Positions 32,924-34,968 of a stretch of DNA of 64,000 bases are shown here, piece by piece. Numbering within the stretch: the stretch's first letter is position 1; every line of letters begins with the position of its first letter. The translations under genes and the position numbers were made by a program. The stretch covers positions 734,435 to 798,434 of the forward strand of contig CALSTG010000001.1 in NCBI GenBank assembly GCA_943789205.1, read 5' to 3'. The notes under the pieces were generated by a model that saw only the letters and a program-made list of their open reading frames with translations, was not told where the DNA came from and did no database searches. This DNA is from an uncultured Flavobacteriales bacterium. Lineage in GTDB: Bacteria > Bacteroidota > Bacteroidia > Flavobacteriales_D > Crocinitomicaceae.

Positions 32924-33378
32924 TTATAATAAGAGAAGTTAAGCCTCAAGATATTCCTTCTGTTCTAGAGCTTATTAGAGAACTGGCTGACTTTGAGCGC
33001 GAACCAAAAGCTGTTGTAAATACAGAGTCAGAACTCAACCAGCATATTTTCAAGGATAAAATATGCAATGCTATAGTGGCCGAAGACAAAAATGAAATAA
33101 TTGGATTTGCCCTTTACTATAATTCTTATTCAACCTGGAAGGGCAAATGCTTATATTTAGAAGATCTATATGTTCAAGAAGCCAAAAGAAAGCATGGTGT
33201 AGGAGCTTTACTTTTTGAAAAAATCATATCTATAGCTAAAGATCAAAAGGTAAGACGTTTGGAATGGTTGGTTTTAGATTGGAACCATCCGGCTATTCAA
33301 TTCTATAAGAAATACGGGGCCAAACTTGACAATACCTGGATGAATGGAAAAATCGAATTTAACGACTGCATCAAATAA
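32920..33378 (+). CDS. GNAT-family N-acetyltransferase (diamine acetyltransferase-like)
   Basis: The 152-residue protein has the GNAT fold. The acetyl-CoA loop is in LYVQEAKRKHGVGALLFEKII (R/Q-x-x-G-x-G/A pattern, about residues 85-105), preceded by the strand KCLYLEDLYV and followed by LEWLVLDWNHPAIQFYKKYGA. The IREVKPQDIPSVLELIRELADFEREP start and the YLEDLYV region resemble spermidine/spermine and diamine acetyltransferases, so a small amine is a plausible substrate. The ATG overlaps the sprA stop (ATGA), so it is the last gene of the operon. The exact substrate is not determined. Confidence 0.83.
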   Translation: MIIIREVKPQDIPSVLELIRELADFEREPKAVVNTESELNQHIFKDKICNAIVAEDKNEIIGFALYYNSYSTWKGKCLYLEDLYVQEAKRKHGVGALLFEKIISIAKDQKVRRLEWLVLDWNHPAIQFYKKYGAKLDNTWMNGKIEFNDCIK

Positions 33379-33454
33379 TCATTCAAATAGACTTTATTTT
33401 CATCCCGACATAGGCGTTTATTCATTGTATCGATTTTAGTCTTTCACATCTCTG

Positions 33455-33462
33455 TAACTTAG
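33455..33462 (+). promoter_or_regulatory. Promoter -7 box of ncRNA copy 1
   Basis: TAACTTAG, one mismatch from TANNTTTG, ends eight bases before the 5' stem of the RNA. Confidence 0.5.
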
Positions 33463-33469
33463 TTAGAGA

Positions 33470-33607
33470 AATAAGGAGAGACACAGGCAACTTCTTATGC
33501 AAAATTCAAAACTGCTTGGAGAAGCAGTTATTTCTAGTTTGATAAGAGTTTAATAGTTTTAGTCGACCCGCTTGGGTCATTTGCATGAGAAGTTCCTGTA
33601 CCTTATT
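33470..33607 (+). ncRNA. Structured ncRNA, copy 1 of 3 (possibly a 6S-like RNA)
   Basis: The ends pair over about 25 base pairs. AATAAGG pairs with CCTTATT, ACAGG with CCTGT and AACTTCTTATGCAAA with TTTGCATGAGAAGTT, interrupted by a one-sided internal loop (AGAGAC). Inside are a hairpin AACTGCTT-GGAG-AAGCAGTT, a single-stranded stretch containing the core TAAGAGTTTAATAGTTTTAG, and a hairpin GACCC-GCTT-GGGTC. A long closing stem around a large AT-rich internal region is the general shape of 6S RNA, the RNA polymerase-binding regulator, and a flavobacterial 6S family exists. That identity is a guess from shape, not from a match. The sequence continues through a shared tail (GCAGTAGCACAAACAATCAA) to a terminator. 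Confidence 0.75.
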
Positions 33608-33638
33608 AATAAAATGCAGTAGCACAAACAATCAATAT

Positions 33639-33667
33639 AAAGGCCTTTTTTAAGGCCTTTTTTTATT
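33639..33667 (+). terminator. Intrinsic terminator of ncRNA copy 1
   Basis: AAAGGCCTT and AAGGCCTTT form a perfect stem with a T loop, followed by a T run. It lies about 32 bases after the RNA closing stem. Confidence 0.88.
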
Positions 33668-33756
33668 TTAAAAGTGTAATAATAACTCAAAGTGTTATTT
33701 TCTTCAATTGAAAGGGTTGAATATTCATCGACCTTCTCCTACTTTAATGAAGTACT

Positions 33757-33764
33757 TATCTTAG
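33757..33764 (+). promoter_or_regulatory. Promoter -7 box of ncRNA copy 2
   Basis: TATCTTAG, one mismatch from TANNTTTG, ends seven bases before the RNA stem. Confidence 0.5.
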
Positions 33765-33770
33765 AAGTGA

Positions 33771-33907
33771 AATAAGGAGAGACACAGGCAACTTCTTATG
33801 CAAAAAGTTAACTGCTTGGAGAAGCAGTTTATTTCTAGTTTGATAAGAGTTTAATAGTTTTAGTCGACCCTCTCGGGTCATTGCATAAGAAGTTCCTGTA
33901 CCTTATT
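33771..33907 (+). ncRNA. Structured ncRNA, copy 2 of 3 (possibly a 6S-like RNA)
   Basis: This is the closest relative of copy 1, with the same closing stem (AATAAGG with CCTTATT, and AACTTCTTATGCAA with TTGCATAAGAAGTT). It also has the CTGCTT-GGAG-AAGCAG hairpin, the identical core TAAGAGTTTAATAGTTTTAG and the hairpin GACCC-TCTC-GGGTC. In copy 1 the 3' strand has TGCATGAGAAG where this copy has TGCATAAGAAG, a G-T to A-T change that keeps the stem. The tail GCAGTAACACAAACAATCAA and the terminator position are shared with copy 1. The duplicated unit therefore runs from promoter to terminator, about 200 bases. Confidence 0.75.
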
Positions 33908-33939
33908 TATAACTTGCAGTAACACAAACAATCAATAAG

Positions 33940-33963
33940 AAAGGGCCTTTTAGGTCCTTTTTT
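33940..33963 (+). terminator. Intrinsic terminator of ncRNA copy 2
   Basis: AAAGGGCC and GGTCCTTT pair with one G-T wobble around TTTTA, followed by T residues. Confidence 0.8.
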
Positions 33964-34050
33964 GATTTTATGTGTTTATTCGCACCCAACAAAAAAACGC
34001 AGAATCATAATATTTAAAGGCAAATACTCCAGAGTTTAACTGATTTTCCA

Positions 34051-34058
34051 TAACTTTG
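34051..34058 (+). promoter_or_regulatory. Promoter -7 box of ncRNA copy 3
   Basis: TAACTTTG is a perfect TANNTTTG box ending four bases before the RNA stem. Its match is better than those of copies 1 and 2. Confidence 0.6.
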
Positions 34059-34061
34059 TAC

Positions 34062-34201
34062 ATAAGGATAAACAGGTCCCTTCTCACGCATTACTTAAAA
34101 TCTTGCTTGGAGAAGCTAGATTTGTATCATCTAATGATAAGAGTTTAATAGTTTTAGCAAGGTCCACCTTGGACCACCCGTGTGAGAAGCCCTGTCCTTA
34201 A
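34062..34201 (+). ncRNA. Structured ncRNA, copy 3 of 3, most diverged (possibly a 6S-like RNA)
   Basis: The architecture matches copies 1 and 2 but the paired sequences differ. TAAGG pairs with CCTTA, ACAGG with CCTGT, and CTTCTCACG with TGTGAGAAG. The first hairpin is AAATCT-GCTT-GGAG-AAGC-AGATTT with a mismatch, and the second is GGTCCA-CCT-TGGACC. Both arms change together relative to the other copies, which is direct covariation support for an RNA. The unpaired core TAAGAGTTTAATAGTTTTAG is identical to the other two. No clear terminator follows, and the RNA end is about 25 bases from the stop codon of the convergent cyclase gene. Confidence 0.73.
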
Positions 34202-34224
34202 TTATCACTGATTCACACTCAGAT

Positions 34225-34968
34225 TCACTTGGATTCCTTTCTATATATAATTGGCCTGCTCGGACAAGCATCGTTTTTAAAAGCACTCATTTGCAATTCA
34301 AGTACAAAGACTCCGTCTTCTATAGAATTAGGCACGAAAATAAATTCTGTAATCGTCCGCTTTGTATTCGTGTTCAATGGCACCTCCCAAAAGGCATGAT
34401 GAAAAGCCAAAATTCCATCATCCTGTTCTTTATCGACAGATGGTAGATCTATCAATACATGTTCAATACCTTTTGAAATCAGATACGTTGCAATGCGCGC
34501 ATCAAGATATGGAGGATTGGTGCCAGTATATGAACGATTTCGCTTTAGCTCATTATTCGGTAAAGTTCTCAATATTATTGCCTCAATACCCATAGCTAAA
34601 TTTATATTTTGAAGCTGTCCTAAGGTGATTATTTGGTCGCCATTCTGAGCCAATGGTTCAATAGAAATAAGCTGAGCGTTAAAAAAGAAATCCTTTAAAC
34701 CATCATTTACTGAATGAAATGATTTGGTAATATGTCCGCAGCATTCAGTATGTGTAATGTGTGCGTGTGGATTGAAGAAAATATTCTTAAAATTCACCAC
34801 GCCACCTTCGGAAACACTACCTACAAAGTTACCGTCTCGAACGGGTTCAATGACCGGTTTACCCTGACCCCATGCTTTTAAACTACCATCTTCAGCATTA
34901 AGCTCTATTGATAAATCAATGGGTTTGTTCGTGTTTATATATTCAGTTTCATTCAGCCGTAAAATCAT
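34225..34968 (-). CDS. Cyclase/kynurenine-formamidase-like metal hydrolase
   Basis: The 247-residue protein belongs to the PF04199 cyclase family. The metal-binding H-x-G-T-H-like motif appears as HAHITHTECCGHITKSFHS (about residues 88-106). A C-terminal segment contains TGTNPPYLDARIATYLISKGIEHVLIDLPSVDKEQDDG and LAFHHAFWE. Members hydrolyse formylkynurenine, isatin or other amides and lactones, and the substrate cannot be chosen here. There is no leader peptide, so it is cytoplasmic. It stands alone between the ncRNA cluster and the divergently oriented glyS gene, separated from glyS by only 80 bases. Confidence 0.75.
   Translation of the reverse strand: MILRLNETEYINTNKPIDLSIELNAEDGSLKAWGQGKPVIEPVRDGNFVGSVSEGGVVNFKNIFFNPHAHITHTECCGHITKSFHSVNDGLKDFFFNAQLISIEPLAQNGDQIITLGQLQNINLAMGIEAIILRTLPNNELKRNRSYTGTNPPYLDARIATYLISKGIEHVLIDLPSVDKEQDDGILAFHHAFWEVPLNTNTKRTITEFIFVPNSIEDGVFVLELQMSAFKNDACPSRPIIYRKESK

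Follow-up and report, generated by a model that had tools for sequence, protein, structure and literature searches.

The window, a 64,000-nt stretch of the genome of an uncultured aquatic Crocinitomicaceae bacterium, carries three tandem copies of a gene for a structured RNA, probably a regulatory one whose expression a LytTR two-component system activates, as judged from comparative sequence analysis. Comparison across relatives reveals a conserved structure, conserved sequence, direct repeats at a nearly fixed place upstream, a recurrent gene neighbourhood and co-occurrence with one regulator. In many relatives, the RNA lies right behind the gene of this predicted switch protein and therefore looks like the RNA output of a sensing system. 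Each unit would be a gene for a non-coding structured regulatory RNA with a structure of about 140 nt, the predicted transcripts of copies 1 and 2 extending over about 195–200 nt to the terminator end.

All three units lie on the + strand and are direct repeats of one RNA gene that have diverged from each other (Table 1). They occupy the gap at 33379-34224, between a GNAT gene ending at 33378 and a convergent Cyclase gene; gene coordinates confirmed that this interval is protein-free over 846 bases, as the first-pass annotation had stated. By BLAST, copy 2 shares 92% identity with copy 1, and copy 3 about 72% over the alignable part. The core described as identical in all three copies was indeed found to be so over 23 nt (TGATAAGAGTTTAATAGTTTTAG), with no further match in the window at up to three mismatches (shuffled sequences expect 0). 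In addition, no fourth copy was found in the same genome by BLAST or covariance model. The repeats, together with folds far below those of shuffled sequence, bear out the earlier claim of three related structured RNA units, each with a -7 box. Terminators had also been claimed after copies 1 and 2, and a terminator scan placed terminator-like hairpins behind both and none behind copy 3. The scan returned seven sites against 0.6 expected, four of them being the P3 hairpins of copies 1 and 2 (either strand) and one the copy-1 terminator reversed.

Table 1. Features of the RNA interval, with positions in the window. Fold z compares each copy with shuffled sequence; R1 is the covariance model of the RNA.
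Feature	Position	Strand	Basis and remarks
Predicted operator of copy 1	33397-33425	+	TTTTCAT 33397-33403, TATTCAT 33419-33425; period 22, against 21 in most relatives
-7 box of copy 1	33455-33462	+	TAACTTAG; read from sequence
RNA copy 1	33470-33607	+	Rod P1, hairpin P3, core 33540-33562, hairpin P4; R1 106.1 bits; fold z -7.25
Terminator-like hairpin of copy 1	33639-33660	+	Followed by T run; terminator scan
Predicted operator of copy 2	33701-33728	+	Degenerate TCTTCAA 33701-33707, TATTCAT 33722-33728; 21 bp apart
-7 box of copy 2	33757-33764	+	TATCTTAG; read from sequence
RNA copy 2	33771-33907	+	Core 33841-33863; R1 109 bits; fold z -5.76
Terminator-like hairpin of copy 2	33936-33964	+	Terminator scan
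-7 box of copy 3	34051-34058	+	TAACTTTG; read from sequence; full consensus box
RNA copy 3, diverged paralogue	34061-34202	+	Core 34135-34157; R1 50.1 bits; fold z -5.05; branch 98/99
Cyclase gene	34225-34968	-	Convergent with RNA copies

The fold is clearest in the single-copy form of the window's genus, in which both ends form a long rod (P1), and P2 (GUUGAC/GUCAAC) encloses hairpin P3 (CUGCUUGGAGAGGCAG) and the nearly invariant stretch behind it. A small hairpin, P4, carries a loop that alternates between GAAA, UUCG, CUCG and CACG. Window copies 1 and 2 retain little of the 5' strand of P2 and have a longer P3 and P4. The layout first read from the window, with its closing stem, hairpins and core, was accordingly sound in those parts and missed the enclosing stem P2 of the wider family. 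The genus set comprised 56 copies, after redundant loci from the window's own genome (L002-L004, L044, L045) were dropped; removal of eight more (duplicates, copies with N or without a 5' anchor) left 48, of which 24 single-copy orthologues formed the covariation alignment. The copy-1/2 kind was left out, as were L026, near-identical to L025, and L027-L030, L074, L076 and L086, in which MAFFT misplaced a stem. Across 42 pairs, 96.2% of cells are paired versus 92.4 in shuffles, a percentage flattered by leaving out these rows. Changes on both sides occur in 45 cells, compared with 12.0 for shuffles and no more than 11 for slid controls; they fall in 10 of the 42 pairs (5.2 and at most 4, respectively). 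The covariation proposed from the three window copies thus extends to a wider alignment, well above shuffled and slid controls.

Support differs among the helices. The outermost helix shows one-sided changes and mismatches only, and P3 is invariant in the 24 orthologues, so that this set says nothing on it. In rows outside the alignment set (L028, L029), P2 differs in sequence and is still paired, and an alternative to it is predicted by single-sequence folding in some orthologues, such as L010. A further hairpin within the core, P5, has four pairs that are 82.5% paired; P3 and P5 jointly hold two cells changed on both sides versus 0.6 in shuffles, a value reached by 26 of 500 shuffles, and P5 is plausible on this weak support. 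A pairing between core and tail, weighed by eye alone, was not taken up. Of the 48 distinct copies, 13 have no ATG reading frame and the longest frame in any copy has 22 codons; a peptide-coding role was rejected, as the copies share no common reading frame or conserved ORF.

A covariance-model search of the kind proposed in the first-pass annotation was run over 249 genomes of the order with model R1, for which the scoring round including the window copies covered 35 sources, a part of the loci collected by then. The RNA was recovered in 60 genomes, all of one family, named Crocinitomicaceae on the strength of record titles, in 8 of 64 genera and mostly as one copy. A core-only model (R2), run over 395 genomes of the class, matched 17: 10 family members and 7 genomes from elsewhere, the latter at E 0.007-0.045 per genome, which is chance level. 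Searches over more than 40 genomes used stricter filters with few candidates scored per genome, so their negatives are soft; a later look gave three loci that the 249-genome search had missed. The exact core pattern retrieved 55 stretches from a named genome collection, titled mostly as Crocinitomicaceae, Cryomorphaceae or Flavobacteriales MAGs, and the few records titled as other groups look like mislabelling. The same pattern occurred in 0 viral contigs and thus gave no sign of phage origin. BLAST matches outside the family (G046, G050, G058) were rejected, having no RNA layout around them (L038-L040).

Copy number varies within the window's genus. Outside it, each RNA-bearing genome has one match, and 27 of the 31 RNA-bearing genus genomes in the 249-genome search likewise have one, the other four having three (G000, G025, G026, G032). 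Two to four copies were also found in G018, G030, L055, L062 (four), L087 and L094. In a 34-row tree, built on 143 columns and flagged by the program for long branches, the copy-3 types of seven records including the window form one branch (98/99) and those of L009, L055 and L094 a second (100/98), the two not being shown to be sisters. The middle two copies of L062 do not differ in any column used, a likely sign of recent duplication or gene conversion. The suggestion that the copies have specialised is plausible, given that copy 3 of the window branches separately with support and no longer has the operator. A different kind of divergence was observed in the genus members L041-L043 and L032, in which most of the core is deleted (CTAGTCAAAAGTTT) and the rod and P3 are kept.

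Outside the genus, the gene neighbourhood links the RNA to a regulator. Among 27 loci (L190-L216), 22 have the regulator gene next to the RNA on its upstream side and in the same orientation, the exceptions being L196, L200, L203, L204 and L205; with L218 and G213 added, 24 of 29 genomes have a LytTR response-regulator gene immediately before the RNA. In the other five and in the window's own genome, the two lie apart, and no linked case was found by contig and position among the genus genomes in which both were located. The single LytTR protein of the window's genome is the orthologue of the RNA-adjoining regulator (64% identical), is encoded 718 kb from the RNA copies and adjoins a TPR histidine kinase (L258). 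A histidine kinase stands beside the regulator in all three loci read: the order is kinase, regulator, RNA in G138 (L217), and kinase, LytTR regulator, RNA, convergent Cyclase gene in G226 (L218). By Pfam, the regulator consists of Response_reg and LytTR domains, and the kinase of TPR, His_kinase and HATPase_c (L218, L258). The Cyclase gene is found downstream of the RNA in 12 of 28 loci outside the genus (L190-L216, L218) and in 13/13 genus loci tested; because it is kept there, the RNA site is probably old, and it would be the regulator pair that left in the window's genus.

Furthermore, regulator and RNA co-occur. An orthologue of the regulator (E up to 1e-70) was found in 76 of the 249 genomes, all of Crocinitomicaceae. 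All 60 RNA-positive genomes are among these 76, and none of the 15 family genomes listed without the regulator is RNA-positive, a co-occurrence inside one family whose genomes are not independent; the two lists were compared by hand, and the listed handles agree. Of the 16 genomes with regulator only, 11 were fetched (seven outside genus g28, four of the seven within it), and in three of these model-negative loci the RNA was recognised behind the regulator; it is complete in L318, and L308 and L309 have a reduced version with P3, UUUUCUAGUUU, the tail and a perfect repeat pair. This leaves 13 of the 76 without a found RNA, two of them in the genus and seven with regulators just 48-54% identical; five (G007, G190, G146, G222, G230) were covered by the model search only. 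One LytTR protein each was counted in the window's genome and three others of the genus (4/4), and 7, 12, 21 and 26 LytTR matches, two of them below cut-off, in four other family genomes, where the regulator is therefore assigned by neighbourhood alone. Behind the regulator gene of G097 (end 1593 on the - strand; L315), a different rod-like unit was observed, AAGTCAGGTTAA... with ...TTAACCTGACTT followed by a T run; it lacks the known core and may be a far-diverged form of the RNA.

The region upstream of the RNA carries repeats of the type expected for such a regulator. LytTR sites are described in the available text of one source as direct repeats of 9 bp each, mostly 12 bp apart, located just upstream of the promoter (PMC6193735). 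The repeats upstream of the RNA are likewise direct, with a spacer of about 12 bp, and so share the geometry of LytTR-regulator sites. Among the 56 genus copies, TATTCA motifs recur at -90, -69 and -48 from the RNA 5' end, most fully in the single-copy form; ATTCA pairs most often have a spacing of 21 bp (28 cases), followed by 42 (9 cases). The best TATTCAT pair has at most 2 mismatches in 49 of these copies and more than 3 in four (L062 twice, and the copy-3 types of L055 and L094). Outside the genus, it has at most 2 mismatches out of 14 positions in 26 of 31 loci and 3 or 4 in the others (L192, L194, L202, L206, L209), with a spacing of 21 in 30/31 and the first repeat at -74 to -71 in 26/31. 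Two mismatches were reached in 1.3% of trials with shuffled upstream sequence. Window copies 1 and 2 combine one perfect repeat with an imperfect first one, and copy 3 has no good pair upstream (5 mismatches at best); in the copy-3 types of six records, the best pairs have 3 to 5.

Such pairs are also found elsewhere in the genomes. At up to one mismatch, the window's own genome has 14 TATTCAT pairs versus 1 for the reversed pattern, and five other genomes have 1-12 versus 0-4; 19 of 32 classed placements lie inside open frames, and therefore no regulon was drawn up. One perfect pair in the window's genome, 21 bp apart (L104, G000:C1:398909-398936, - strand), is followed after 56 bases by a 71-codon ORF whose start resembles a signal peptide and which may be a second target of the regulator. 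Another perfect pair, also 21 bp apart, lies upstream of an rpoD-like gene in G015 and G002 (L131/L132). Shared control of rpoD was dropped, since the pair is present in 2 of 21 genus loci read (22 fetched, one unreadable) and absent in the other 19.

From these features, we infer a circuit that runs from sensing to RNA output. The LytTR regulator, once activated by phosphorylation, would bind the TATTCAT direct repeats upstream of the -7 box and so switch on transcription of the RNA. The RNA would then pass the signal on to its targets, with base pairing through the nearly invariant unpaired stretch as the most likely means. Most loci outside the genus retain the segment UUUUCAUUUUCUAGUUU, which could anneal to A-rich sequence around the AUG at the start of messages; this is a guess, because the CAU of the segment is missing in several genus members, in copies 1 and 2, and in L308 and L309. 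The GGAG loop and the ACUAC-rich tails would also allow for a protein partner. RNA and regulator would have become separated in the window's genus, with the RNA multiplied to two to four copies in some members and some of these copies having shed the operator.

A protein partner could also take the place of base pairing. The RNA would then serve as a sponge or scaffold, its GGAG-loop hairpin and ACUACUA-rich tail binding a protein and not mRNAs; this is compatible with two-component control and competes with the base-pairing step only. The strong conservation of hairpin and linker sequence across genera and the repeated ACUAC motifs in many tails agree with it. However, no candidate protein stands behind it, L029, L030 and the copy-3 type of L009 do without the GGAG loop, the core is incomplete in L032 and L041-L043, and the tails of the window copies are without the ACUAC motif, all of which makes it rather unlikely. 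Far less probable still is a cis-acting element, either a 3' untranslated region or an attenuator of the regulator mRNA. It would suit the close succession of regulator gene and RNA seen in most genomes outside the genus, but the repeats and the -7 box sit between the two, and in the window and the five unlinked genomes the RNA is apart from the regulator and yet has the repeats upstream.

The shape had at first been likened to 6S RNA, and a 6S-type RNA particular to the lineage, in which RNA polymerase would bind at an open bubble within a long rod, was weighed. As in 6S and 6S-Flavo RNAs (RF00013, RF01685), a long rod is closed by both ends around a large open internal loop; unlike these, the RNA has an enclosed hairpin (P3, within P2), a sequence-conserved core, an operator and tandem copies, and its tail and terminator extend beyond the closing stem. 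No Rfam 15 family reaches its gathering score in the window. At a relaxed threshold, 34 weak hits fall in the interval (BSnc120, Histone3 and 32 others), all below gathering scores; they were rejected, the best ones mostly covering the copy-1 terminator. Nothing relevant was matched in Rfam by 16 distant RNA loci. RF01685 gave nothing over cut-off in the window's own genome or in 60 genomes of the order (G000-G059), and RF00013 matched 0/60 at E up to 1. These models are weak tests here, because no control genome matched RF01685 over cut-off at the settings used, and the Bacteroides control was also unmatched by RF00013. Their silence extends to the other sampled families of the order, so that it weighs little in either direction: the 6S of the 60 genomes is either too diverged for the models, lost to filters or missing, and the 6S gene is to that extent unaccounted for. 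The same repeats upstream of the rpoD-like gene in two genus genomes would suit a polymerase-binding RNA, but only in 2 of the 21 genus loci read. The likeness to 6S was not borne out, the LytTR-type operator and the regulator neighbourhood being the stronger argument, and such a function is considered improbable.

To our knowledge, few RNA regulators of Bacteroidota have a known controller. For the RNA described here, read as the output of a LytTR two-component system, both a regulator and an operator are predicted, and its gene is found linked to the regulator, apart from it or multiplied, depending on the genome. Some of the genomes with a match consist of one contig (G138, G141, G161) and may come from cultured strains, in which the predicted wiring could be tested directly. 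If true, this wiring would also assign a function to the only LytTR protein of each of the four counted genomes of the window's genus.

Activation of a structured regulatory RNA by a LytTR-family regulator via direct repeats is known from AgrA-RNAIII in Staphylococcus and VirR-VR-RNA in Clostridium. ComE-like proteins belong to the LytTR family as well. RNAIII also codes for a peptide, whereas the Crocinitomicaceae RNA is without a conserved ORF; both systems belong to another phylum, and the sequence comparison with them consists of the Rfam non-match only. Closer in taxonomy, Rfp18 of Flavobacterium psychrophilum is described in the available text as a structured sRNA conserved beyond its species in the flavobacterial genus (PMC9723704). 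It is likened here by description alone, the main text of that paper, as far as available, being without the word LytTR (PMC9723704). A literature search returned nothing on noncoding RNA in Crocinitomicaceae or on sRNA in Fluviicola. The nearest arrangement is fasBCAX of group A Streptococcus, for which the available text reports sensor kinases, a ComE-like response regulator and a downstream monocistronic sRNA gene, FasX (205 nt), with a match to a ComE-like site upstream of its -35 region (PMC12675982). By arrangement, as far as that text describes it, the present system is alike in having a kinase, a LytTR regulator, an RNA gene downstream and a regulator-type site upstream. Unlike fasBCAX, with its two kinases, it has one TPR histidine kinase where read, belongs to a different phylum, and has the RNA unlinked from the regulator and multiplied in the window's genus. 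It is quite possible, if short of probable, that in small-genome Crocinitomicaceae of lakes and sea the sole LytTR two-component system has this RNA as its main output, as a fasX-like switch that arose independently of the streptococcal one; with the RNA multiplied in some members and one copy freed of this switch, constant and induced forms would coexist there. With no Rfam match and fasBCAX as the nearest arrangement, the RNA is regarded as a new family, placed in a circuit logic already known from another phylum.
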